Source of the DNA: a virus
DNA: 64,000 nt
Virus record (IMG/VR): IMGVR_UViG_3300011113_000202
Span: 1-64,000 of that record
Reading direction: 5' to 3' (one strand)
Shown: positions 4,388 through 64,000 of the stretch, piece after piece
Numbering within the stretch: the stretch's first letter is position 1
Layout of the letters: every line of letters starts with the position of its first letter
Notes under the pieces: generated by a model
Seen by the model: the letters and a program-made list of their open reading frames with translations, nothing else
Told to the model about the DNA's origin: nothing
Databases searched by the model: none
Position numbers and translations under genes: made by a program

Positions 4388-5680
4388 ATGATTATAAATA
4401 AAGCACACTGGGTTACGGAAGGCGACAGCGTTCGTTTTTCTATGCCCATTGGCAAGATTGACCAAGAACGTCGTACCGTTTCTGGTTTTGCAACACTAGA
4501 TAACATTGACAAACAAAATGATATTGTAACTACGGAAGCAAGCATGACTGCTTTTAAGAAATTCCGTGGCAACCTTCGTGAAATGCATCAACCCAGTGCT
4601 GTCGGCAAGGTTGTTTCTTTTAAAGAGGATCGTTATTTTGATCCTGAAACAAAGAAGTTTTATAGTGGAGTTTATGTTTCTGCATATGTTTCTAAAGGTG
4701 CACAGGATACATGGGAAAAAGTTCTTGATGGAACCTTGACTGGTTTTTCAATTGGTGGAAATATTAAAAAGTTTGATGACGAATTTAATCCAGACCTTGA
4801 TAAATCAGTGCGTATAATTAAGGAGTACGAATTGCACGAGTTGTCACTTGTTGATAATCCTGCTAACCAATTCGCTAATGTTATCTCTATTGAAAAAGGA
4901 CAACTTGGTGGATATTTGGCAAAAGCAGTAGTTGATACAGTTTACTGGTGCAAAGAAGACGATATTGTTCGCTTGTCTCCTGAAGATAAGGAAGCATGTC
5001 CTACTTGTGATAAAACAATGTCAAACATTGGTTTTGTTGAGCAGGGCGATGACAATATTGAAACATTAAAGTTCTTAGTTGATAGTGCAAAAGGCATTAG
5101 AACAATTAAGATGACAAAGGAGGATAATCCTATGACAGAAGAAACAGAAGTTGTAGCAGAGGCACCAGCCGAAGCAACACCAGTTGTTGAAAATGTTGAG
5201 GTTGCTCCAGAGGCTACAGCAGAAGTAGTAGCAGAGCCAGAAGCAGTTGCTCCAGAAGCACCTGCTGATACTGAACTTGCTAAGACTGATGAAGTTGCTC
5301 CTTCAACAGAAGAAGTTGTAGAGAAGAAAGAAGATGTTGTTACAGATATCGCCAAAGATGTAACAGACATTAAAGATTCTCTAACTAATGCCTTGAGCAG
5401 TCTAGCAGAAACCGTTAAGTCACTTCAGGTTAACGTTGATGCAATTACAAAGTCCCTTGAAACAGTTACAGGCGAAGTAAAGTCTGTAGCGAGTGAGGTT
5501 AAAGAGGTAAAGGGTTCTTTCGATGAGTTTGGAAAGCGAGTAGATCTTGTAGAAAAAGATACTGCTTTCCGCAAGTCTGGCGATCTAGGCGAGATCGTGC
5601 AGGAGTTTTCAGAAATGAAGACTCAAAAATCCCTATGGGGCGGACGTTTCCTCACAAATGCCGACCTATTTAACAACTAA
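4388..5680 (+). CDS. Prohead maturation protease, XkdF/S78-like, fused to scaffold domain
   Basis: 430 residues. The N-terminal ~170 residues match the XkdF-like serine protease group (peptidase S78-related): FATLDNIDKQNDIVT, then MHQPSAVGK with the probable catalytic His, then LTGFSIGG with the probable catalytic Ser, then HELSLVDNPAN. A CxnCPTC cluster follows near residues 185-205. The C-terminal ~180 residues are low-complexity Glu/Ala/Val/Pro followed by a long heptad coiled coil, typical of a capsid scaffold. The major capsid gene follows directly. The protease would cleave scaffold and capsid delta sequences during head maturation. An internal start gives a separate scaffold product (see 5132-5680). 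Confidence 0.82.
   Translation: MIINKAHWVTEGDSVRFSMPIGKIDQERRTVSGFATLDNIDKQNDIVTTEASMTAFKKFRGNLREMHQPSAVGKVVSFKEDRYFDPETKKFYSGVYVSAYVSKGAQDTWEKVLDGTLTGFSIGGNIKKFDDEFNPDLDKSVRIIKEYELHELSLVDNPANQFANVISIEKGQLGGYLAKAVVDTVYWCKEDDIVRLSPEDKEACPTCDKTMSNIGFVEQGDDNIETLKFLVDSAKGIRTIKMTKEDNPMTEETEVVAEAPAEATPVVENVEVAPEATAEVVAEPEAVAPEAPADTELAKTDEVAPSTEEVVEKKEDVVTDIAKDVTDIKDSLTNALSSLAETVKSLQVNVDAITKSLETVTGEVKSVASEVKEVKGSFDEFGKRVDLVEKDTAFRKSGDLGEIVQEFSEMKTQKSLWGGRFLTNADLFNN
5132..5680 (+). CDS. Nested scaffold protein (in-frame internal start)
   Basis: An in-frame ATG at 5132 is preceded by AAGGAGG at 5117-5123 with 8 nt spacing, one of the best ribosome sites in the window. The 182-residue product would begin MTEETEVVAEAP and hold only the acidic linker and the coiled coil. 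It would be a scaffold without protease, as with lambda Nu3 inside gene C. This arrangement is known in other phages; here it is inferred from the ribosome site and the domain boundary. Confidence 0.62.
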   Translation: MTEETEVVAEAPAEATPVVENVEVAPEATAEVVAEPEAVAPEAPADTELAKTDEVAPSTEEVVEKKEDVVTDIAKDVTDIKDSLTNALSSLAETVKSLQVNVDAITKSLETVTGEVKSVASEVKEVKGSFDEFGKRVDLVEKDTAFRKSGDLGEIVQEFSEMKTQKSLWGGRFLTNADLFNN

Positions 5681-11825: not shown

Positions 11826-14800
11826 GTGGCTGACGTAAATGCTAATATTGGCATACATATAGATACGTCACAATCTTTAGCAGAGATTAAAAATCTTCAA
11901 CGTCAGTTAGCACAACTCTACACAAGTATAAACAAAGGTAGTGCCGCAGCAGCGGCAGCCCAAAAGGGTCTTGCTACTAACTTAATGAACACCATCAATG
12001 CTGGTGGTAAGTTCTACGCCCAGATGGGCACAATTCGTACAAGTACGGAATCATTTACTCACGCACTGGAGAAAAACAAACTCACTATGCGTGAGTATTT
12101 CCGTTTTGCTGGCGGATCTACAAGAACATTTGGAAGACTATTTAAATCAGAATTTGACACGATTGGCAAGGTAGCCGAAGAACGTGTCAAGAGAATGCAG
12201 ACCCAATACATTAAATTAGGTCGTGATGCATCTGGAGCAATGAGAGCAATCTCTGTAACTCCAACAAGTCTCAATATGAAAGAATACGGCAATCAGGTAG
12301 CCGTAGCAGCACAGAAACAAGCAATACTAAATCAACTACTTAAACAAGGTTCAACCAATCTATTAAATTTTGGTAAGAATACACAGTGGGCTGGCCGTCA
12401 GTTGATGGTTGGTTTTACAATACCGCTTGCATATTTTGGTACAGCAGCCGCTAAAACATTTATGGATCTTGAGGCTCAGGCCCTTAAGTTTCGTCGTGTT
12501 TATGGAGATATGTTTACCACTACTGCAGAAACAAATAAGGCTCTTGCAGATATAGAAGCCCTTGCTGCACAGTTTACAAAATATGGCGTTGCGGTTAGCA
12601 AAACTATGGAAATGGCAGCATCCGCTGCTGCTATGGGTAGAACTGGTGCAGAATTAACTGCACAGGTTGCACAAGCCACAAGGCTTGCAGTATTAGGTAA
12701 TGTTGAACAAGAGCAGGCATTAACAACAACCATATCTTTAACAGATGCTTTTGGTTTGGCTGCAGAAGATTTGTCAGGAAAAATTAACTTTCTTAATGCT
12801 GTTGAAAACCAAACTATAACAGCAATTGAAGATTTAACTGTTGCTATTCCAAAGGCTGGACCAGTTGTTAAACAACTTGGAGGTAGCGTAGAAGATCTTG
12901 CATTCTTCTTAACTGCTATGCGTGAAGGTGGAATTAATGCATCCGAAGGCGCTAACGCACTTAAATCTGGATTAGCATCTTTAATTAATCCAACAGAAAA
13001 AGCAGCAGCAATGCTTGCTGATATGGGAATTAACATAAAAGCCATTGTTGAAGGAAATGTAGGAAATTTAAGACAAACCGTTATTGATTTTTCAAGAGCA
13101 CTTGATACTCTTGCACCATTAGAAAGATCAAGAGCAATTGAACAATTGTTTGGTAAATTCCAATTTGCACGTCTTTCTACTTTATTTGAAAACGTTACAA
13201 AAGATGGTGGTCAAGCAGCACGAGTTTTAGACTTGGCTGGAAAGTCTGTAGAAGAACTTGCAATCCTATCAGAACGAGAATTGGGTGCAATAGAAGATGC
13301 AATTGGTACAAACTTTAGAGAATCAGTTGAACAACTTAAACTAGCAATCGCTCCTATTGGAAAAGAATTTTTGAAAGCAATAACTCCAGTTGTTAAATTT
13401 TTAGGAGATCTTTTTGAAAAGTTTAATAATTTAAGTGACGGTTCTAAAAAGTTTATAGTTATTTTAACCACTCTTGTAGGTCTTGTTGGACCTACCCTTT
13501 TAATGACATTTGGTTTGGTTGCAAACGGTGCAGCAAATATAATTAAACTATTTTTATTAATGCGACAAGGATTTTTAAAGTTAACTGGAAATAGCACTAA
13601 TCTTGCACAACAAACACAATATTTAAATAGCGAGCAAATGGAGGCAGCAGTTGTTGCTGCGTCTTTAAATCAGGCTCATACAAAACTAACTCAGCAATTT
13701 ACTCTTGAGGCTGGTGCAGTAAATCAACTTCGTAATGCATATGTACAGGCGACAGCAGCGGCAGCAAGGTTTGCAGCAGCAAATCCTGGAATGATGATTC
13801 CTGGTGCTGGAAAGATTCCAAAGAAATTTAATTCTGGAACCATGAAGGTTCCAGGGTATTCAAAGGGCACTGACTCCGTACCTGCAATGCTTACACCAGG
13901 TGAAGCAGTAATTCCAGAACCAATAGCACAAGATGATAGATTTAAACCACTAATTGCAGCACTTGTATCTGGTGAAATTAGAAGGTACCAAGATGGAACA
14001 GTTTTTGCACATGCCGTAGATAAAAGAGTAGTTCGTGGACTAGATGTTCCTGAAAATATGAGGTCTATTGGTTTTGGATCTGCAAATGCTTTTACAGCAA
14101 TTGGGTTTGACCTTAGCCCATCAACAAATTCAAAATTAATTAATAATACCGTTCCAGTTCAAAACTACATAAGCGAACTTAGTAACCCTGGATCTGTAAA
14201 AACAATGACTGCAAGACTTATTGATTTGGGTGTGCCGCCATCAGAAGCAGCAAAAGTAACATCTCAAATAAGAACTAATTTATTAAGATCTCTTGCTGAA
14301 ATTCCCCAAGGAACTCTTATTGGCGATAAAGATATTTATTCAAGAATGGGAAATCTAAAAACTGGAATTTTAGGTGGACTTGTAAGAGACTCACGTGGCG
14401 GATTAATGGGAAGTGCTGTAAGATCCTTATATTCAGCAACGGCGTTTAGTCCACTAGGCTCTTCATCTGTAAAGATGAATGCTACTGCACCAATTGCTTC
14501 AGTTATAGACGCTGTTAAAAAAACAAAAACCTCTCAGTCTGCAATTAGAGCACTAACAAATTTACAAAAAGTAGACCCAAATATAAAGTTACCAGTAAGA
14601 CTTGATGCATCTGGAAACATAACCGCATTTGAAAGACCAGAAGTAAGTAAAAAAACTGGACAAATTACTACGACTAGAAATATTGGCGTATTAACTGGAG
14701 ATAGATTTAAAACTGCAAGATTGGGTCGTGGTGGAGGTAGAAAAATTACTCCAAGCAAAGGTGCAACTGCTCAGGCTACTCAAATTCTTATGGGAAGAGG

Positions 14801-46041: not shown

Positions 46042-46806
46042 ATGCCAATTGATTTTAGTACATTTTCAGAAATAAACATTTCTGCTAAAAAATATGGAAA
46101 CATAGAAATTGTTCCAGAATATAGAGATGGTTTATTAGTTCCAATAAAATATTCAATATATGAAGATAACAATTTATGGATGGAATATGATAATTTAGGG
46201 TTTTATAGCATTAAGCAACTTTATTCGTTTTATGATATTGCTAATGGAGATGTACTACTATCTGGTTTAGGATTTGGAATTATTCCAGTTTGGCTATTAA
46301 ATAAAAAAGAAGTAAAGTCAATAACAGTTGTAGAAAAAAATAAAAACATCATAGATTTATTTAAAGAATCAAACAATATTGAAAATATTAATATTATAAA
46401 TGATGATATAAGAAATTATAAAACCACAAAAAAATATAACTTTGTTGGTTTAGATCATTATGAATTAGAAAGTCAAGAATATATAATTGAAGATTCAATA
46501 AATATATTAAAAAATATACAACATGATAGTTTTTGGATTTGGTCTTTAGAAAAAATATACTTAAAAATGTCTTATGATTTTAGTGAAATAAATAAAAACC
46601 CTTATAAAAATTTATCTGATTTTGATTATTTTTTTACATTTTATAAAGAAGATATTGTTTCTGAATGGAAAAATTTTGTAAATAAAAACTTTCCAAATAA
46701 TTATTTTATCAAAAATATAGATGTTGATAAAGTAAAAGAATATATATATACTTTTTATTCTAGAAATAATCTTATTGATAAATATAAAGATATAAATAAG
46801 GAATAG
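46042..46806 (+). CDS. SAM-dependent methyltransferase/spermidine-synthase-like protein
   Basis: 254 residues. Rossmann-type motifs: VLLSGLGFGIIP (the SAM glycine loop), ITVVEKN (acidic end of strand 2), INDDIRNY (motif III). The surroundings of this core resemble spermidine synthase-type proteins, but the substrate is not evident. Base use is clearly more AT-rich (AAA, ATA, TTA codons) than in the flanking genes, suggesting later arrival. It has its own leaderless promoter. Confidence 0.6.
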   Translation: MPIDFSTFSEINISAKKYGNIEIVPEYRDGLLVPIKYSIYEDNNLWMEYDNLGFYSIKQLYSFYDIANGDVLLSGLGFGIIPVWLLNKKEVKSITVVEKNKNIIDLFKESNNIENINIINDDIRNYKTTKKYNFVGLDHYELESQEYIIEDSINILKNIQHDSFWIWSLEKIYLKMSYDFSEINKNPYKNLSDFDYFFTFYKEDIVSEWKNFVNKNFPNNYFIKNIDVDKVKEYIYTFYSRNNLIDKYKDINKE

Positions 46807-53602: not shown

Positions 53603-54565
53603 ATGACACAACAAGATCCAAGATTTTTTTGCTACAAAGAAGAATTCTTTGGTGGCACAGAATATATGGCAAGATATTTTCATAAAAATGTTGCACCATA
53701 TGTTCCACAACTAAAAGAATATAACTGTTTAATTTTACCAGGACAGACAGACAAATCATATGCAGAACTGATATATGAACCAAAAGAAATTATTATATGG
53801 CTACATAATCTGGTAGACCAGTTTGGTTTTCAACTGTATCATATGTTTACAGATAAAAGATTTATAGATAAAGTTAAATACATCATTACTGTATCTGAAT
53901 ATCATAAACAGGACGTAATCAATAAAACTGGTATTGACCCAAATAAGGTTGTTGTAATTTATAATGCAATTGATCCTATTGATAATAATCTTTCTAGATT
54001 TAAAAATGTAGATGTGCCACAATTAATATATACATCATCTCCAGGTCGTGGACTTGAAATAGGATTAACAGCATTATCTAAATTAGATATTGACTTTAGA
54101 TTGAGCATATTTAATGAAATTATTCCAGATTTAGTTAAAATAGATGATAAAAATAAAAAGATCTTACAAGACCCAAGATTCTTTTTCTATGGTAAAACCC
54201 CGCACAAAACGGTTCTAGATCATATGTCACGTTCGCATATCTTTATGCATACTAGCAACTGGCATGAAACCTTCTGCCTATCTCTTGTAGAGGGCTTAAG
54301 TGCTAATTGTTTGGCTGTATACAGTACCTTCGGATCTTTGGGAGAGGTTGGTTGTGGTTTTGGTTTGCCATATGATATAGAAAATAAAACACAAAAAGAT
54401 ATTGAAAAGCATGTAGAGGTATTCTCTAATAAGATTACTAAGGCAATCAGCATGATTAAAAATGGAGAATTTAATCCAGGCAATCAGGCAGAAACTATAA
54501 ACAAAAAGTATTCTTGGGAAGCATTTACTAACGCTTGGATTGATTTTTATGAAAAGAGAATATAG
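53603..54565 (+). CDS. Glycosyltransferase (GT4-like, GT-B fold)
   Basis: 320 residues. The C-terminal half has the family-4 pattern SSPGRGLEIGLTALSKL, SRSHIFMHTSNWHETFCLSLVEGLSANCLAV (acceptor/donor loop with the conserved Glu), and CGFGLPYDI. Transfers a sugar from an activated nucleotide donor. It is on the plus strand apart from the minus-strand glycan operon (57874-64000), suggesting an independent arrival or an extra sugar step. Overlaps the next gene by one base. Confidence 0.75.
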   Translation: MTQQDPRFFCYKEEFFGGTEYMARYFHKNVAPYVPQLKEYNCLILPGQTDKSYAELIYEPKEIIIWLHNLVDQFGFQLYHMFTDKRFIDKVKYIITVSEYHKQDVINKTGIDPNKVVVIYNAIDPIDNNLSRFKNVDVPQLIYTSSPGRGLEIGLTALSKLDIDFRLSIFNEIIPDLVKIDDKNKKILQDPRFFFYGKTPHKTVLDHMSRSHIFMHTSNWHETFCLSLVEGLSANCLAVYSTFGSLGEVGCGFGLPYDIENKTQKDIEKHVEVFSNKITKAISMIKNGEFNPGNQAETINKKYSWEAFTNAWIDFYEKRI

Positions 54566-56352: not shown

Positions 56353-56533
56353 AGGTATTCCAACTTGCAGGTGCCCGAATTGTGGAGACACATTATTTAG
56401 AGCGCTTGTTTCTTTTGATCCAGAAACTTATACAATAGGTATGTATCATCTTGACATTCAATGCAATAACTGTGGCGCTCTTGCTACCGCACCAACACCA
56501 TTAGATAATCCAGAGGATAACAATGAAAGATAA
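56339..56533 (+). CDS. Small zinc-ribbon protein
   Basis: 64 residues, TTG start at 56339. Two knuckles CRCPNCG and QCNNCG. ALVSFDPETYTIGMYHLDIQC forms the strands. Overlaps both neighbours. Unknown function. Confidence 0.5.
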   Translation: MIDARGIPTCRCPNCGDTLFRALVSFDPETYTIGMYHLDIQCNNCGALATAPTPLDNPEDNNER

Positions 56534-57242
56534 AAAAGTATTTTTTATACCAAAAAGTGAAGAAGTTTTTGATTGTATAAAACATCCACAACCAGCAAAA
56601 AGATATATTCCAGACTGGTTTAAACAGATGCCGCAATATCTTTTAGATGTTGATGGAAATAAACGTGATGGAACAGCAAAAATTTGTCCTCCATTTACTG
56701 ATTCATTTTTAATGGGTTACATACAAGAACTTCCATGCGATATTTTAATTAATTATAATGGTTATGATGAAAAAAATAAAATGGATTTAATAGAATATGA
56801 ATGGTCTGGAGATTTTAGACCATTATCTACAAGACTAGAAGAATCTAGATCAAGCAGAGTCTTGCCAGATTTTAATGGATATTATAAAACAGAATTTCAC
56901 TGGAATACTCTTTGGGAACCAGAAACTCCAGTAGGATATAGTACTCTTTATATGCATCCATTAAACAGATATGATTTGCCATTTTTAACACTTAATGGAG
57001 TTATAGATACTGATAAATGGAGTGTTAGTGGGGCACTTCCATTTTTACTTAAACATGGCTTTCAAGGAATAATTCCTGCTGGAACACCTATTTATCAAAC
57101 AATTTTTATTAAAAGAGAGTCTTGGTCTTCAAATGCAAAAGAATATGATAAAAGAAAACAGTCTAATATGGGGTATAGTGTAAAAAAATTTTTTACAGGC
57201 GGGTATAAAAAACAATATTGGTCAAAAAAAGAATATAAGTAG
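56523..57242 (+). CDS. Conserved phage protein of unknown function
   Basis: 239 residues. Aromatic-rich alpha/beta protein: HPQPAKRYIPDWFKQMPQY, TAKICPPFTDSFLMGY, FHWNTLWEPETPVGYSTLYMHPLNRYDLPF, LPFLLKHGFQGIIPAGTPIYQ. This pattern (kP..kyiP.W.k.mP, T.K.C.P..D....GY) is seen in marine and freshwater phages without a role. The aromatic patches and conserved His may bind a sugar or metal. Overlaps the previous zinc-ribbon gene by 11 nt. Confidence 0.55.
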   Translation: MKDKKVFFIPKSEEVFDCIKHPQPAKRYIPDWFKQMPQYLLDVDGNKRDGTAKICPPFTDSFLMGYIQELPCDILINYNGYDEKNKMDLIEYEWSGDFRPLSTRLEESRSSRVLPDFNGYYKTEFHWNTLWEPETPVGYSTLYMHPLNRYDLPFLTLNGVIDTDKWSVSGALPFLLKHGFQGIIPAGTPIYQTIFIKRESWSSNAKEYDKRKQSNMGYSVKKFFTGGYKKQYWSKKEYK

Positions 57243-57575: not shown

Positions 57576-57827
57576 ATGACACAAAAAGAAATTAAAGCAA
57601 TGCTTGCATCTTATCTAAGATCAATCGTAGGTGCAACAGCAGCATTGTACGTCGCTGGAGTAACAGATCCAAAAGATCTATGGGCAGCACTTGTTGGTGC
57701 GCTTATCCCAGTAGCAGCACGTGCAGTAAATCCTAACGATCCAGCATTTGGACGTTTACCAGCAGCATCTGTTGTTGATTCGGCTTTGAAAAAGGCTAAG
57801 TCAAAAAAGTCTAAAAACGCAGAGTAA
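57576..57827 (+). CDS. Holin-like small membrane protein
   Basis: 83 residues. KAMLASYLRSIVGATAALYVAGVTDPKDLWAALVGALIPVAARAVNPNDPAF, with two moderately hydrophobic segments, a charged N-terminus and a basic Lys-rich tail; this type is common in actinophages and often annotated as holin. GC-richer favoured codons, strong ribosome site and own terminator point to high expression. Also possibly a structural or assembly protein. Confidence 0.6.
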   Translation: MTQKEIKAMLASYLRSIVGATAALYVAGVTDPKDLWAALVGALIPVAARAVNPNDPAFGRLPAASVVDSALKKAKSKKSKNAE

Positions 57828-57845: not shown

Positions 57846-57880
57846 AAGGCGGGCTTAGAAATAGGCCCGCTTTTTATTTT
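57846..57880 (+). terminator. Rho-independent terminator, convergent junction
   Basis: GCGGGC (57849-57854) pairs with GCCCGC (57865-57870); extended by T-A pairs, followed by TTTTTATTTT. On the minus strand it lies just after the glycosyltransferase stop but with a weaker T tail. Confidence 0.8.
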
Positions 57881-58923
57881 AATGAATCAAATAATTCAAT
57901 ATATTTATCTTTTAATACTTCTGGAGAAAAGGATCCCACTCCAATATCAAGCGCTTGCTCTTTAAGTTTTATCTTATCTTTCTTTTTCATATTAATAAAA
58001 TTATCAATTAACTTTGCTAATTGTTTTGGATCACCTTCATAAACATCTATAATAGATTTAGCCCTAAACTCACCTATTTTTTCAGCATCTACTAGCCATT
58101 CTTTTGGAAGTATTTGATTGTTTGGTGATAAGTCTGTCATAAAAACGGGAAGTCCACTTATAAGAGCCTCATTCATAGGCAAACATAGTCCAGCATACCT
58201 TCTTGGTAAAACCATTGCATCAAATCCATAATATAGATCTTGCCTATCTTTTAAATTTTGATATAAAAATGATACTCTTGGATCTTTTGGTCTTCCCTCA
58301 AATTCTGTTTGAGAGGTTATCACTAAGTTATAATCTTCTTGAGAATACTTAAGCATTTCAAGAACCGTATCTGTTCCATTTCTATCTCTTGCTGCTTTTT
58401 TACCAGCAACATGCAAAATACGATTGTGCATTTTTGCCATGTTTTCATTTCTAGCACGATCAAATAGTTTTATGTCTGTAGGCGGGGGTAGATGAATAAG
58501 CCTTGCCTGATCTCCAAACATGGTCTGCATTTTATTAAAATTCCATAGGCTAGGGGCTAACAATACATCTGGTAAAGACTCGCTTTTATGTTCCATATTA
58601 ACTAAGAATTCATAGTTATATTGAAGAACTGTTTTAACTCCCATATCTCTTGCTATATCAACAAACATAGAAGAGTAAAAAGTTTCACAAGATAATACAA
58701 CATCTAGGTCTTTAAGAAAGGATATTATTTCTCCACGTTTTGGAAAACCAAATCTTGTCACTGTATTATCGTAGTTTTCATACCACTCAAAATGTTGTTT
58801 ATTTTTATTAAATTTTGTTGAGTCTATTATGAGAACCTTTCTAGGCTTGAGCATTTTTACAAGTTCTCTAGTTTGATTGCCTAAGCCTGTATTGTCGCAT
58901 CGTACGATTATGCCAAGTCTCAT
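57874..58923 (-). CDS. Glycosyltransferase (GT-B fold)
   Basis: 349 residues. RLGIIVRCDNTGLGNQTRELVKMLKP at the N-terminus and a C-terminal DRQDLYYGFDAMVLPRRYAGLCLPMNEALISGLPVFMTD, the GT-B donor-binding helix region with the conserved Glu. A sugar transferase of the last position in the minus-strand operon. Start overlaps the stop of the upstream gene (ATGA). Confidence 0.7.
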   Translation of the reverse strand: MRLGIIVRCDNTGLGNQTRELVKMLKPRKVLIIDSTKFNKNKQHFEWYENYDNTVTRFGFPKRGEIISFLKDLDVVLSCETFYSSMFVDIARDMGVKTVLQYNYEFLVNMEHKSESLPDVLLAPSLWNFNKMQTMFGDQARLIHLPPPTDIKLFDRARNENMAKMHNRILHVAGKKAARDRNGTDTVLEMLKYSQEDYNLVITSQTEFEGRPKDPRVSFLYQNLKDRQDLYYGFDAMVLPRRYAGLCLPMNEALISGLPVFMTDLSPNNQILPKEWLVDAEKIGEFRAKSIIDVYEGDPKQLAKLIDNFINMKKKDKIKLKEQALDIGVGSFSPEVLKDKYIELFDSLK

Positions 58924-59681
58924 TCTTTATATCCCCAAACTAAATCATCGGTTGTAAACTTTTTTGTTCCCTCACGACCATCTAAATGATATGATCTTTT
59001 TATGTTTCCTTCAGGATGATAAATCCACAACTTATGAGTGTTCCATCCATCTTCATTAAAGTAGCCATAAGGCAGCATGTCATCTTGAACCTTTCCGTGA
59101 AAAGTATCTTCTATAAAAAACTTATCTTTACAACTTGGTAATACAATATTTTTATAATAATTTACTCTTGTCAGATGTGGTCTTTGACTCCATTGAGATG
59201 TTTTCATAAAACCATTCTCAAGCCCAAGCATCAAATGTTTATGAGGCTCAGGTATGGATGCTTCAAAATGAAAACGAATTGTGTTAGCCTTTTCATATTC
59301 AAACATATCTAAACACTTTGACCAGTCTATGTCAACATCTGGTGTTAATGGGGCATCTGCTTCAACATAAAGCATTAAAGGTGTTTTAATTTCATTAATA
59401 GTTTCACGCATCATATTTGTTTGATGGCTGTGTTGTTCAAATATAAATGGTATTACATTTTTATATTCATGCAAACATTTCCAAAGTATGCGATTTTTGT
59501 ACTCATCGTAATCATTTTTTCTATTTTTTTGTTCTTTTCGCAATCCATCTATCTGCATAATTATTTCATTATTTGGAAAATGAACTCTAATAGAACTAAT
59601 AGTCTCATCTATAATGTTTGTGTTTGGGTGGCTTGCTAAAACAGAACTAGCAATAACTATTGTGACATTATCTTTATGCAT
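58920..59681 (-). CDS. Glycosyltransferase-like (GT-A, DxD-like) protein
   Basis: 253 residues. VTIVIASSVLASHP strand-loop at the start, DETISSIRVHFPNNEIIMQIDG, then PLMLYVEADAPL with a DxD-like acidic cluster, and a C-terminal Trp/His-rich region. Looks like a family 2-type transferase. Eight-nt overlap with the previous gene in the operon. Confidence 0.55.
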   Translation of the reverse strand: MHKDNVTIVIASSVLASHPNTNIIDETISSIRVHFPNNEIIMQIDGLRKEQKNRKNDYDEYKNRILWKCLHEYKNVIPFIFEQHSHQTNMMRETINEIKTPLMLYVEADAPLTPDVDIDWSKCLDMFEYEKANTIRFHFEASIPEPHKHLMLGLENGFMKTSQWSQRPHLTRVNYYKNIVLPSCKDKFFIEDTFHGKVQDDMLPYGYFNEDGWNTHKLWIYHPEGNIKRSYHLDGREGTKKFTTDDLVWGYKE

Positions 59682-60522
59682 TTACTTGCTCCATAATCTT
59701 TATACCTAAATCTCTCTTATATTTAATCCACCAAGCAACAACCTTGTGCATATTTTCTGGGTATTGACTCAATAACTCAGGAGCCAAGTTGTGTAACTCA
59801 AACCAGTTAGAGACATGGGTAACAGGAATATGATACCCAAATAAATAATTATAAAAATCTAAACTGTTACCGTTTGGATCTATCCTATCAAAAATAGGAA
59901 GACATAGCATTTCTATAGCCTCATAAAACCTAAAGGAGTCTATCACTACAGCCCCAGAGGGCACAGGAGCAACCTTGGCACTGGCTAGAGTTCTGTAGTA
60001 GTCTATTGGTTTATCTCCCTGTGCAAAGCCTGCTGTGGGCTTAAAAAGGGCATTTGGCATAGTTTGTATAGCCTTAGCCAACTGCTGTCTTCTTGAGTGA
60101 GTTATCTGACCACCAAAATATAAATCATTATCCTTAGAAGGATATTCAGGAACGAACCTTTTTAGATGTTGGGGCACACCTATCGGTAATTTATTATAGT
60201 TCTTATGTTTTTCATGAGGGTACTGAATCCATATCTCAGCATTGGGATGATTAATCTTAGTTATATCAAACTTACCTTCTTCATCCCCCGTAATAAATAA
60301 AACAACTCTTGAAAGGTTTTGTATTTGAGCATTAATATCTTCTTCATGACCAAGGTTTTGAGGTCCAGGAACTACAACAAATCCACGATCAGTATTAGGA
60401 ATAGAAGTTACCTTTACTTGATCCACGTCGTATTTATCAAATATTTCTTTAAGAAGACCATAGTCCCACTTATCAGCAGCACAGTCTTCTTGTTTAACTG
60501 AGTAGAGATATGCGTTAGTCAT
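59674..60522 (-). CDS. Exostosin/GT-like glycosyltransferase
   Basis: 282 residues, start at ATG 60522 in the ATGA overlap with the upstream PIG-L gene (an earlier ATG at 60537 is possible). RFVPEYPSKDNDLYFGGQITHSRRQQL and SAKVAPVPSGAVVIDSFRFYEAIEMLCLPIF resemble the exostosin-type domain (SRFCLxPxG...S.R..Ea...GcIPV). Sugar transferase of unknown specificity. Confidence 0.62.
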   Translation of the reverse strand: MTNAYLYSVKQEDCAADKWDYGLLKEIFDKYDVDQVKVTSIPNTDRGFVVVPGPQNLGHEEDINAQIQNLSRVVLFITGDEEGKFDITKINHPNAEIWIQYPHEKHKNYNKLPIGVPQHLKRFVPEYPSKDNDLYFGGQITHSRRQQLAKAIQTMPNALFKPTAGFAQGDKPIDYYRTLASAKVAPVPSGAVVIDSFRFYEAIEMLCLPIFDRIDPNGNSLDFYNYLFGYHIPVTHVSNWFELHNLAPELLSQYPENMHKVVAWWIKYKRDLGIKIMEQVNA

Positions 60523-61136
60523 GTTAAAATTTTCCATAATTTTTCTTCTACAATAAGTTTACCAATTAAATCTTCGTCTATGTAAGATGGATCATGTACA
60601 TATGCTATCTGTGAGTTATACTTTTTGATTGCCTCAATTTTATGCTTTGTAAAATTAATTGAAATGTTTTTTAAAGTATAGACTGACTCAAACTGTTTTA
60701 ATCTTTCTTTATGTAACTTTGGATGCGACATCCTATATGGCAATTCAGCATATACAAAATATGTTTTATTAAAATTTTTCATTAAATTAAAGAGATTATC
60801 TGATAACAAAACATGGTCTGGATGATAAATACCCAATGGAATATATATATTATCAAAATTTACAATTATACTTTTTATCCAATCAATTAAAATATCTTCA
60901 TCTTGTTTTCCATAAACATCATCTAGTAAATCTCCATTAATAACTTTAGCATTTATCATAGAACAGGCTTCCTCATGTTCTTTTCTTAATCTAATATGCT
61001 TTTTGTATCCTGCCCAATCTTTTGGTATACCAGCAAATGCAGATGCAATAGTAAACTCATTATTATTATCAATAATATGATCACCTAAAGAAAAAATTGC
61101 ATCATCTGTATGTGGACAAAATATAAGACTACTCAT
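60519..61136 (-). CDS. PIG-L/LmbE-type deacetylase
   Basis: 205 residues from ATG 61136. FCPHTDDAIFSLGD carries the PHxDD metal-binding motif; IYIPLGIYHPDHVLLSD gives the second His. Zinc-dependent removal of acetyl groups from GlcNAc-type sugars, as in MshB and Mca of actinobacteria. Overlaps both neighbours. Confidence 0.78.
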   Translation of the reverse strand: MSSLIFCPHTDDAIFSLGDHIIDNNNEFTIASAFAGIPKDWAGYKKHIRLRKEHEEACSMINAKVINGDLLDDVYGKQDEDILIDWIKSIIVNFDNIYIPLGIYHPDHVLLSDNLFNLMKNFNKTYFVYAELPYRMSHPKLHKERLKQFESVYTLKNISINFTKHKIEAIKKYNSQIAYVHDPSYIDEDLIGKLIVEEKLWKILT

Positions 61137-61839
61137 AGAATAAGTGCACCTCATGCTGATAATCTAAAATAGTTTCTTTATATCCTAATTTTTTTATCCA
61201 TTGTCTAAGATCATATAAAAATTCATTCCATTGTTGTAGCATAAATTCAGGGTGTCCAGATAGCCAAATCTTTGGTTTATACTGTTTAAGCACCTTCTCA
61301 GCCCCCTCTAATACTCTCCATTCGCTACCCTCTACGTCTAATGAAATGGCGGTAGGTGGCTTAATACCATGATCATATACACAAGAGTCTATAGTTATTT
61401 GACCATATAAATCACCTTCAAGGTATAACTCTTTAAAGCCATGTGCGATATCAACATAATCTATCTCTGCTTCTGGAGGAAATTTCTTATAATATATTTT
61501 TGCAAGATTATTTATTTTATTAGAAGCAAATGCAGCAATACAAGCCATTGGAAGTTCTAAATTATTAGAAGACCAAGTTAGTGGAAAATGTGACCATACT
61601 TTAGGGTTTGGTTCAAACAAAACAACTTCTGCCCCCCACATTTGGCATAAGGCTGGGAACTCTCCCTCTTCTGCACCAACATAATAAACAACATCTCCTT
61701 TACCAATGTGTTCATTCATTGATTTAAGTCTTAGTTTTTCCCAACCCTTTTCTGAATGCCACTCTGGTCTATCTGCACGATGTTTTGGAAGCACAATTTC
61801 AAACTCTCCATTTAAAATTGTTTTAATCATCTCTGTCAT
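61129..61839 (-). CDS. FkbM-family methyltransferase
   Basis: 236 residues. VVYYVGAEEGEFP (glycine loop), EVVLFEPNPKVW, ISLDVEGSEWRVLEGAEKVL: the FkbM pattern. Transfers methyl to a sugar or peptide hydroxyl. ATGA overlap with the upstream methyltransferase. Confidence 0.82.
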   Translation of the reverse strand: MTEMIKTILNGEFEIVLPKHRADRPEWHSEKGWEKLRLKSMNEHIGKGDVVYYVGAEEGEFPALCQMWGAEVVLFEPNPKVWSHFPLTWSSNNLELPMACIAAFASNKINNLAKIYYKKFPPEAEIDYVDIAHGFKELYLEGDLYGQITIDSCVYDHGIKPPTAISLDVEGSEWRVLEGAEKVLKQYKPKIWLSGHPEFMLQQWNEFLYDLRQWIKKLGYKETILDYQHEVHLFYE

Positions 61840-62345
61840 TTCATTGCCTCCATAAAATAGAATTCATGTTCCCGTGTATCAAGTTCATAAATTTTGTTGT
61901 TTGATAGTGCACTTTCTTTATAGTTTACTTTTGTTATATTTTTAAATCCACTATCATGTAACTTATATTTTAATGCTTTATGTGTTAATAAAGATGTTGA
62001 TGTTGAGTACCAAGTTAGCCAAGAAGAAAAACGTATGTCTATATTGTCTTCAGAGTTAGGAAAAAAGTTAATATTATTATTTTTATATGCATCAAATCCA
62101 GAAACAATATCTGGCAAACTAATTCTAACCACACCACCAGGCTTTAACACACGATTAAATTCTAGTAAGGCTGCATTAATTTTATGATAGGGTATTGAAC
62201 AAATTGTTGCATGAGAAACTAAAATATCACAGGAGTTGTCTGGAATTAAGTGTAAATTTTTGTGCTCCGTTTTATACTCAGGATCAATATCTATGTTTAT
62301 CCAGTCAGCAGGCTGTATGCTTCCACATCCAAAATTTATTTTCAT
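61836..62345 (-). CDS. Type-11 methyltransferase
   Basis: 169 residues from ATG 62345. MKINFGCGSIQPADWINIDIDPE with the SAM loop, CDILVSHATICSI, and EFNRVLKPGGVVRISLPDI, the class I methyltransferase core. ATGA overlap with the epimerase. An earlier ATG inside the epimerase frame is less likely. Confidence 0.78.
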   Translation of the reverse strand: MKINFGCGSIQPADWINIDIDPEYKTEHKNLHLIPDNSCDILVSHATICSIPYHKINAALLEFNRVLKPGGVVRISLPDIVSGFDAYKNNNINFFPNSEDNIDIRFSSWLTWYSTSTSLLTHKALKYKLHDSGFKNITKVNYKESALSNNKIYELDTREHEFYFMEAMK

Positions 62346-63226
62346 TGTTGTATCCAATCCATTATAGATATCTTTGGAGTCCATCCAGTTAATTCTTTAA
62401 ACTTTGCGTTTGATGCAAGAGTTTCTTGAACTTCTCCAACTCTTGGCGGTATAAACTTAATATCATTTGAAATCATATTAGCGATATCAAGTATAGAATA
62501 GTTACTTCCATACCCAATATTATACACCTCACCAAACCCATTTTTAACTTCAGACGCAAGTATGTTTGCTTGAACTACATCTGATATGTGCGTAAAGTCT
62601 CTACGCTGAGATCCATCTCCAACTACTGTTAGTGGCTTTCCTTCTTCATGCTGTTTTAAAAATAAACCTATAACTGGTGCATATTGACCTTTTAATGGCT
62701 GTCTATCTCCATATACGTTAAAGTATCTAAGGGAAACAGTCTCTAGTCCATATAGATTATAGTAGACTCTTGCAAGGTTTTCACCAAAAACTTTAGCAGT
62801 AGAGTATGGTGTTAGTGGGTCAGAAGGCTGTGTCTCTATGTTTGGAAGAATTGCCTTCTTGCCATATGCAGAGGATGTACTTGAATAAATAAATCTTTTT
62901 ACTTTATTAATTCTAGATAACTCAATAACATTTGCAGTACCAACTGCGTTTGATTCAATAGACTTTCTTGGATTTAATATTGCAGGCTGTATTCTTGCAT
63001 CTGACGCAATGTGAAAAACATAGTCAATACCATTAAATAGTGGAGCAATCTTATCGTAATCACAAATATCATACTTGTAGTTGTTTGCTTTTGGGTTCCA
63101 ATAAAACTGATCATGGCACTCTGCTGACTCATTATCTATACAAATAACTTTATGATCAAGTTCAATTAACTTATCAACAAGGTTTGAACCAATAAATCCA
63201 GCACCACCTGTTACCAAAGAGTTCAT
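62342..63226 (-). CDS. NAD-dependent sugar epimerase/dehydratase (GalE/WcaG-like)
   Basis: 294 residues from ATG 63226. Extended SDR: VTGGAGFIGSNLV, FHIASDARIQ, SSTSSAYGK, YSTAKVFGENLARVYYNL (Tyr-x3-Lys), RYFNVYGDRQ, YNIGYGSNYSI. Converts NDP-sugars, the donor supply for the neighbours. ATGA overlap with the upstream glycosyltransferase. Confidence 0.88.
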   Translation of the reverse strand: MNSLVTGGAGFIGSNLVDKLIELDHKVICIDNESAECHDQFYWNPKANNYKYDICDYDKIAPLFNGIDYVFHIASDARIQPAILNPRKSIESNAVGTANVIELSRINKVKRFIYSSTSSAYGKKAILPNIETQPSDPLTPYSTAKVFGENLARVYYNLYGLETVSLRYFNVYGDRQPLKGQYAPVIGLFLKQHEEGKPLTVVGDGSQRRDFTHISDVVQANILASEVKNGFGEVYNIGYGSNYSILDIANMISNDIKFIPPRVGEVQETLASNAKFKELTGWTPKISIMDWIQQ

Positions 63227-64000
63227 TTGATTCCAAGTTCTTCTAGAATTTCTGACCATCTATTAAGATATGTGTGCTCGCTCTTTGTTCGTTCATGACC
63301 ACGCTTTCTTATTGCTTCCCGCTCATCTCCATGCTCAAGATAGTAATCTATCTTTTGCTTAAGATCATCAAGGTTGCCATGTTCATACCAAACAATTTCA
63401 TCTTCATTAAAGTATTTATCAAGTCCGACTATCTTAGGATAAATAGTAAAGCCACCACGACCAGTACTTTCAAATAGCCTATCGCTTGTGTAATATGGAT
63501 AGTTAAAGTTTAAATTTAATGTATCTCCAATAGCAATCTTGCTTTTTGCATAAATACGATTTAATGCATCACCTCTGATTGTTCCTGTATCTCCATCTCC
63601 ACCTACATGACAAAATCTATCTTTATATGTTTCTCTTAAAAAATCTATTAGTTGTGGTCTAAATGGATATTCGTGATGATATCTTTTGCTTCCCACGAAA
63701 ATTACATCGTGTTCATAATATTTTTTATTGTAGTCTATATGTATATAACACTCTTTGTCGTATACTCCAGGTGGCATAAAGTGGCCTTTTACCTTTGTAT
63801 TTTTATTAAACCAGTCAGCCATCAATTTGTCAACGGTAAAAAAATGTCCTATTGATTTATAAAAACCATCATTTTCAAGATCCTTTTGCCTATTAATACC
63901 AAACCATAGGTCAAGATGATATGTCATTGTTGGTATGCCCTGCTTTTTTAGTTCATGCAAAACATCAACCATGTCTATACTTCCTGGTGTCTGCCAGCCG
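63223..64000 (-). CDS. Glycosyltransferase-like protein, 5' end cut by window
   Basis: The frame stays open from 63972 to the window edge (GWQTPGSIDMVDVLHEL), so the start is outside. Visible are 258 residues: TYHLDLWFGI, VIFVGSKRYHHEYPFRPQLIDFL, AKSKIAIGDTLNLNFNYPYYTSDRLFESTGRGGF, GLDKYFNEDEIVWYEHGNLDDLKQKIDYYLEHG. The C-terminal part matches the Glyco_trans/spore-type GT-B region with DRLFEA..CGG.. logic. First gene of the minus operon in this window. Confidence 0.7.
   Translation of the reverse strand, partial: GWQTPGSIDMVDVLHELKKQGIPTMTYHLDLWFGINRQKDLENDGFYKSIGHFFTVDKLMADWFNKNTKVKGHFMPPGVYDKECYIHIDYNKKYYEHDVIFVGSKRYHHEYPFRPQLIDFLRETYKDRFCHVGGDGDTGTIRGDALNRIYAKSKIAIGDTLNLNFNYPYYTSDRLFESTGRGGFTIYPKIVGLDKYFNEDEIVWYEHGNLDDLKQKIDYYLEHGDEREAIRKRGHERTKSEHTYLNRWSEILEELGIK

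Follow-up and report, generated by a model that had tools for sequence, protein, structure and literature searches.

An eight-gene glycan operon with a conserved core and exchangeable cassettes in an uncultured tailed phage of probable actinobacterial host

Introduction

Genes for sugar-modifying enzymes have been described in several actinophages. In Corndog, glycosyltransferase and methyltransferase genes lie beside the capsid genes and were proposed to modify the capsid, according to the account in PMC4351075, and PMC12363180 cites virion proteins of Che8, Corndog and Myrna as glycosylated. The present work concerns a stretch of 64,000 nucleotides of viral DNA, hereafter the window, which comprises bases 1-64000 of the 70,056-base IMG/VR virus record IMGVR_UViG_3300011113_000202. 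At its right end lies an operon of eight consecutive minus-strand genes, named g8 to g1 in order of transcription (64179 to 57874), with predicted products that include four glycosyltransferases (g8, g3, g2, g1), a nucleotide-sugar epimerase (g7), two methyltransferases (g6, g5) and a PIG-L-type de-N-acetylase (g4) (Table 1). Among the papers returned by literature searches, none was recognised as describing this locus, and PMC8402811 has no bearing on it.

The sets of Che8, Corndog and Firecracker resemble this operon in combining glycosyltransferases with a methyltransferase in an actinophage, and that of Firecracker (an O-methyltransferase and three glycosyltransferases) also in its consecutive genes with short overlaps. 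They differ in position, the Corndog and Firecracker sets lying in the structural operon and the Che8 set at the right end, and in size, with three to four genes against eight here and neither an epimerase nor a PIG-L protein in the portion of their annotations that was available. No significant match to Che8 gp108-110 or Firecracker gp33-36 was obtained with the operon and 17 neighbouring genes (BLASTP, phmmer) or with eight family profiles. Judged by homology, the operon is outside the Che8/Corndog-type (Firecracker) enzyme families; it may work like them. In the Stenotrophomonas phages DLP3 and DLP5, as here, a PIG-L protein, a WcaG epimerase-type protein, a methyltransferase and a glycosyltransferase are encoded close together, but, going by their description in PMC7326821, an aminotransferase (WecE) is present and the glycosyltransferase is single in the stretch described. 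Chlorovirus PBCV-1 (A064R/A061L) likewise encodes glycosyltransferases and sugar methyltransferases, which make a glycan of its virion, and the variants of this glycan correspond to antigenic classes; it is, however, a eukaryotic algal virus, and its variants arise by mutation or deletion, as described in PMC9614988. The phages E7 and F5 of Candidatus Nanopelagicales are also WhiB-bearing actinophages with glycosyltransferases of their own, but their genomes are of 39 kb, each with a glycosyltransferase, in the account given in PMC10202952. Finally, GtrABC seroconversion modules share with the operon a phage glycosylation function that includes a GT-A transferase, GtrB being weakly matched by the g2 fold, and differ from it in their membrane flippase and membrane-bound transferases, the operon being without membrane segments and the record without an integrase match. 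No relative of g2 or g3 was found in the phage collection.

Conserved core and exchangeable cassettes

Relatives of the locus were collected from IMG/VR with a PIG-L query, which returned 14 loci, and a g2 query, which returned 230 stretches, the best 80 of which were analysed. The 93 loci used, two of them from one contig, all hold g2, and the locus counts given below are not independent, being biased to close relatives and including several near-copies. The operon lies beside the same small gene, m1, in 92 further IMG/VR contigs, and m1 adjoins it on the opposite strand in 92/92 related loci once the duplicate is removed. Among the 38 loci with g8, the genes g5, g3, g2 and g1 occur in every one (38/38), g7 in 31, g4 in 12 and g6 in 11. 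Of these g7 genes, four encode divergent epimerases (24-27% identity), and three of the seven loci without g7 hold an epimerase of 55-57% identity at another place, on the opposite strand. Some slots are occupied by alternative proteins, namely an S-adenosylmethionine (SAM)-dependent methyltransferase of 188-199 amino acids (aa) between g5 and g3, and proteins of 225-301 aa between g7 or g8 and g5, the 225-aa type of which matches glycosyltransferase families weakly. This conserved core with exchangeable cassettes is the main result, and one which an earlier note made from the window alone had overlooked.

Exchange is seen directly in pairs of loci. The loci L005 and L042 share DNA identities of 98% in g8, 93% in g7, 97% in g3, 95% in g2 and 99% in g1, with 79% in g5, and g4 and g6 are present in L005 and missing from L042. 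In L269 the flanks are 84-91% identical to the window at the DNA level and the middle of the operon has been replaced: there is no match to g7 or g6 and g5 is 27% identical, in a record with a capsid protein 96% identical to that of the window. The g5 slot is thus allelic, a 27%-identical FkbM-type protein standing in its place in both L010 and L269. In the 43 loci with both slots visible (two were skipped), g4 and g6 occur together in 13, are both lacking in 29 and g4 occurs alone in one. On a tree of g1 and g2 (44 loci and the window), the presence of PIG-L requires 10 changes, at least seven of which are forced by starred branches, and of seven independent pairs on starred branches an average of 6.8 have g6 going the way of g4. 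The PIG-L label needs three changes on the g5 tree (44 rows, L010 excluded), compared to 11.7 when shuffled, and it follows that g6-g5-g4 is usually transferred as a block. The block can also break, as indicated by L011 and L012, which hold g4 without g6, and by L010, L013 and L269, in which g4 is accompanied by a different or differently placed g5. An independent or strict coupling of g4 to g6 was therefore set aside.

The operon belongs to the phage and is a fixed phage locus. Both g2 and g8 were found in 4/16 records that share a related capsid protein, the search having covered 16 records out of 80 loci, and the capsid protein was found in 4/11 g2-bearing records. Among the 12 records negative for g2 and g8, WhiB was found in G005 only, so that in the remaining 11 this end of the genome is probably missing. 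G005 (114,443 bases) has the related capsid protein and WhiB without g2 and g8. The genes beside its m1, which are spread over both strands, encode two methyltransferases and a carbamoyltransferase, together with a GT25 protein and two further proteins, one of the GlcNAc-transferase family and one alpha-1,4-glycosyltransferase-like. Given a different cluster at the same site, the locus looks like a replaceable glycan island. Next to the G005 cluster (L268:2220-3410, 4521-5569) are proteins which, by eye, we take to resemble the phosphate-binding PstS and an AhpC/AhpD pair for defence against peroxide.

Gene junctions

Short gene overlaps alone are commonplace in phage operons. The seven junctions from g8 to g1 are overlaps of 4, 4, 4, 8, 4, 8 and 4 bases, the five 4-base overlaps all being ATGA and the two 8-base overlaps following TAG and TAA stops, which bears out the earlier description of 4- or 8-base overlaps, mostly ATGA, at every junction. 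The longest open reading frames (ORFs) of g3, g4, g6 and g7 would overlap by 19, 26, 43 and 37 bases, and the 4/8 pattern therefore requires internal ATG starts for these genes; such starts are supported because relatives keep identical overlaps (g4-g3 in 21/21 pairs, g5-g4 in 17/17, g7-g6 in 7/7 and g8-g7 in 27/27). The g2-g1 overlap is 4 bases in 92/94 pairs and the g3-g2 overlap 8 bases in 81/89. What is unusual is that short overlaps are retained after cassettes have been swapped: where genes are missing, the new g7-g5 junction overlaps by 8 bases in 12/20 pairs and by 4 in 8/20, g8-g5 by 4 in 3/3, and g8-g6, formed where g7 is missing, by 4 in 2/3 and by 1 in 1/3. In these junction counts L004 and L055, from one contig, were both included, and non-adjacent pairs were excluded by a distance limit. 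Since the overlaps persist across swaps, coupling seems to be maintained either by selection or by the way in which cassettes join.

The start of g8 is a TTG codon at position 64179 of the record, preceded by GGAGG, and the next gene, g9, is divergent, which sets the operon at exactly eight genes. The earlier proposal of at least eight genes running beyond the window thus holds for the extension, which amounts to 179 bases only, but not for further members, a point settled by reading the record past the window, as had been advised. The proposal that the operon runs opposite to all other genes does not stand, as most genes predicted between 64931 and about 69500 are on the minus strand too.

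The predicted enzymes

The predicted gene content agrees with that first suggested (three to four glycosyltransferases, an epimerase, two methyltransferases and a PIG-L deacetylase), except that g2 is identified by fold only and g3 of the window falls below Pfam cut-offs. For g7, the nearest solved relatives are UDP-glucose 4-epimerase 4zrm, WbgU and wbpP; its profile spans nearly all of 4zrm (E 5.6e-58), WbgU and wbpP, and Y141 and K145, which we take to be the YxxxK site of short-chain dehydrogenases/reductases, are invariant. Together, these features place g7, as predicted from sequence, in the GalE/WbgU/WbpP group of 4-epimerases. The PF02585 score of g4 is 28.7 bits, just over the cut-off of 28.2, and H9, D11, D12, H105, P106, D107 and H108, presumably the HxDD and HPDH metal-site motifs, are invariant in 13/13 aligned members, consistent with a PIG-L family de-N-acetylase. 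The PIG-L ORF of L094 (7982-9163) is 393 aa long, compared to the usual length of about 211 aa, and is possibly a fusion or extension.

In the g3 family, RXYLT1_C is matched in 14/15 members and Exostosin_GT47 in 12/15, the g3 of the window scoring under both cut-offs (22.7 vs 27 and 17.3 vs 33.4); its AlphaFold2 model is poor (pLDDT, the predicted local distance difference test, of 60) and gave no significant fold match. For g2, no Pfam family was found over cut-off and no PHROG family; its AlphaFold2 model is confident and GT-A-like in the N-terminal half and of low confidence in the C-terminal half, and the fold matches in the PDB are headed by TarP, followed by AvpGT, GtrB (weak) and TarS. 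No membrane segment is predicted in g1-g8 (no KD19 hydropathy window above 1.6), and the operon hence lacks a flippase, a polymerase and a partner of GtrA type.

Table 1. Coordinates and assignments of the operon genes and other features; positions are those of the window unless marked otherwise.
Feature	Position	Strand	Length	Assignment	Basis
g8	63223-64179 (to 64000 in window)	-	318 aa	CgeB-like glycosyltransferase (Glyco_trans_1_2), first gene	PF13524 E 1.5e-24; phrog_28745 glycosyltransferase E 2.7e-34
g7	62342..63226	-	294 aa	NAD-dependent nucleotide-sugar 4-epimerase, GalE/WbgU/WbpP type	PF01370 E 3.6e-58; phrog_540 E 2e-90
g6	61836..62345	-	169 aa	SAM-dependent methyltransferase (Methyltransf_11)	PF08241 E 5.3e-07; phrog_5399
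g5	61129..61839	-	236 aa	FkbM-type methyltransferase	PF05050 E 2.7e-13
g4	60519..61136	-	205 aa	PIG-L-type de-N-acetylase	PF02585 E 2.1e-06
g3	59674..60522	-	282 aa	exostosin/GT47-like glycosyltransferase (weak assignment), core gene	family-level Pfam matches
g2	58920..59681	-	253 aa	GT-A (GT2-like) glycosyltransferase, core gene	fold match only
g1	57874..58923	-	349 aa	GT4-type glycosyltransferase, last gene, core	PF00534 E 9.1e-07 and PF13692 E 2.2e-06, both over cut-off; phrog_2170 glycosyltransferase
m1	57576..57827	+	83 aa	holin-like by eye, constant operon neighbour	no PHROG match
g9	record 64218-64928 (L002:7219-7929)			divergent from operon	weak Stealth_CR2 match
GT4-type glycosyltransferase	53603..54565	+		separate gene upstream of WhiB, outside operon	PF13439 E 4.5e-08; PF00534 E 1.9e-07; phrog_2170 E 2.5e-17
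promoter-like sites	L002:12886-12914 and 13010-13038 (record 69885 and 70009)				motif scan

Genome context and neighbouring genes

The record is that of a tailed phage, with PHROG matches to portal, head protease, major head protein, tail protein, terminase and endolysin, and also to DnaB helicase, primase, DNA polymerase, a UvsX-like recombinase and WhiB. Its capsid protein is 43% identical to those of Streptomyces phages, and this likeness, together with WhiB, points to an actinobacterial host. The left arm of the record is on the plus strand and the right arm on the minus strand. As no end repeats were found in the record and related records reach 88-114 kb, it may be incomplete. The Phage_integrase profile had no match in the record, with matches in 14/14 control genomes.

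Several other genes near the operon are of glycan type. The separate GT4-type glycosyltransferase upstream of WhiB is a possible helper of the operon. Across 73 loci showing g9, this gene follows g1 in 62, precedes g8 in 10 and has another position in one, and so switches sides of the operon among relatives. Beyond it, at 64931-66938 of the record (L002:7932-9939), are the gene of a second FkbM methyltransferase and that of a GT21-like glycosyltransferase (phrog_34859), separated by an HNH-like gene. A phrog_7084 protein is encoded at 56523-57242 of the window, and several loci have at least two divergent copies around the operon. Farther left, an HslV-type peptidase, a protease-type protein and an Hsp20 chaperone are adjacent in the phage (46815-48936), and the HslV-type gene is separated from that of the endolysin by one for a further methyltransferase-like protein (46042-46806). 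A promoter scan of the L002 stretch gave 54 sites against 56.9 expected, a total not above chance; two near-perfect promoter-like sites (TTGACA, 17, TATACT; 11/12) stand 124 bases apart at the end of the record.

Proposed function and alternatives

The enzyme families found fit the original suggestion of a pathway for a methylated, partly deacetylated sugar chain. It is proposed that a phage-encoded, probably translationally coupled pathway at work in the host cytoplasm would assemble a short, decorated oligosaccharide. In this scheme, g7 would make UDP-N-acetylgalactosamine or UDP-galactose from host UDP-N-acetylglucosamine or UDP-glucose, the transferases g8, g3, g2 and g1 would attach sugars in turn, g4 would take off an N-acetyl group, and g5 and g6 would add methyl groups. 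The product, placed on a head or tail protein, could serve as a strain-specific coat, with g8, g5, g3, g2 and g1 forming a conserved scaffold and the epimerase and g6/g4 slots being exchanged between phages by recombination in flanking core genes, so that the glycan might differ from one related phage to the next. The most likely product is a methylated and partly de-N-acetylated oligosaccharide attached to a virion protein, and the chance that the glycan is indeed borne by the virion is put at about even. This destination is favoured by the presence of cytosolic enzymes only, by the lack of an integrase and of a hydroxymethylase in the record, and by the actinophage precedents. Several observations weigh against it. 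The operon and the capsid genes are far apart, in separate arms; BLASTP, phmmer and profiles showed no homology to Che8 gp108-110 or Firecracker gp33-36; neither an acceptor protein nor a glycosylation site came to light; the coupling of g4 and g6 is largely explained by block movement with g5; the conservation of the core is skewed to close relatives because loci were picked by similarity to g2 or g4; and the glycosyltransferase calls for g3 and g2 rest on weak or fold-level evidence.

The glycan could instead go on the host surface or on lipid-linked wall precursors at the cytoplasmic face, where it would alter the receptor and exclude other phages, a role that PMC10202952 proposes for the glycosyltransferases which E7 and F5, cultured phages of Planktophila, encode. 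The g2 fold resembles the wall teichoic acid transferases TarP and TarS and, weakly, GtrB, the related phage G005 carries a GT25 protein, of lipopolysaccharide type, at the same site, and cassette exchange would suit changing host envelopes. However, the absence of any predicted membrane protein from the operon leaves it without a GtrA-type flippase, and the lack of an integrase match, in a record that may be incomplete, gives no sign of lysogeny, in which seroconversion pays most, so that this destination is regarded as unlikely. A further alternative is hypermodification of phage DNA against restriction enzymes, in which PIG-L and the methyltransferases would decorate a base-linked sugar. 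The same account (PMC10202952) names DNA protection as the second possible role of glycosyltransferases in actinophages; cytosolic enzymes without membrane anchors would suit it, and nucleotide kinase PHROGs were matched among 34 small proteins. Against this, the thymidylate-synthase-family hydroxymethylase profile PF00303 had no match in the 70,056-base record, again possibly incomplete, with matches in 9/14 control genomes, and a chain of four transferases with exchangeable decorations would exceed what DNA protection needs; a DNA target is accordingly held to be quite improbable. The TET/JBP profile PF12851 also had no match in the record, the control likewise matching nowhere. DNA-hypermodifying phage glycosyltransferases are, to judge by its title, reportedly the subject of Pyle 2024.

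A last alternative concerns origin rather than target. Gene types of this kind are generally frequent in host O-chain and capsule clusters, and the G+C content from 57874 to the window end is 32.9%, compared to 36.5% for bases 1-57800, as might be seen if the assembly were chimeric, or if a host polysaccharide cluster with no function in the phage had been captured recently. That 92 further contigs have the genes in identical order at the same place, next to the same phage gene, argues against this, and the refuting outcome named in the earlier note, a host cluster or chimera, was not encountered. A pattern scan of the genome collection found no relative of g2 (two peptide patterns, of limited sensitivity), and the g3 profile gave one weak, short match in 396 actinobacterial genomes. 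With the epimerase, only distant cellular relatives were returned: among the best 80 of 563, the top one, from a Giovannonibacteria metagenome-assembled genome (MAG), is 51% identical, and none is labelled Nanopelagicales. On these scans a host origin was rejected, and a chimera or a captured cluster without a role in the phage is considered barely credible. The closest of these 80 relatives are in two Giovannonibacteria MAGs (L184 and L185; 51% and 49%), and lateral transfer is possible. A mobile cassette independent of the phage was also excluded, given the constancy of m1 in 92/92 loci.

Implications

Returning to the virion glycan, the locus may tentatively be viewed, though with some doubt, as the O-antigen-like serotype locus of a widespread uncultured actinophage lineage. 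Decoration cassettes would be exchanged around a conserved glycan core at a fixed site, with the stop-start overlaps at their joints preserved, and the whole would sometimes give way to an unrelated carbamoyltransferase/GT25 cluster, so that virions of one lineage would wear many coats without adaptive immunity as the driving force. The pair L005 and L042, nearly identical save for the g6-g5-g4 cassette, offers a natural comparison for the effects of deacetylation and methylation, and pairs of this type would also help to show it if the target were DNA or the host wall. Should the glycan be on the virion, it would represent a natural coat polymorphism comparable to that of bacterial O-antigens and would raise the question of which pressure favours a variety of coats in the absence of antibodies, be it host defences, decoys, grazers or competing phages.

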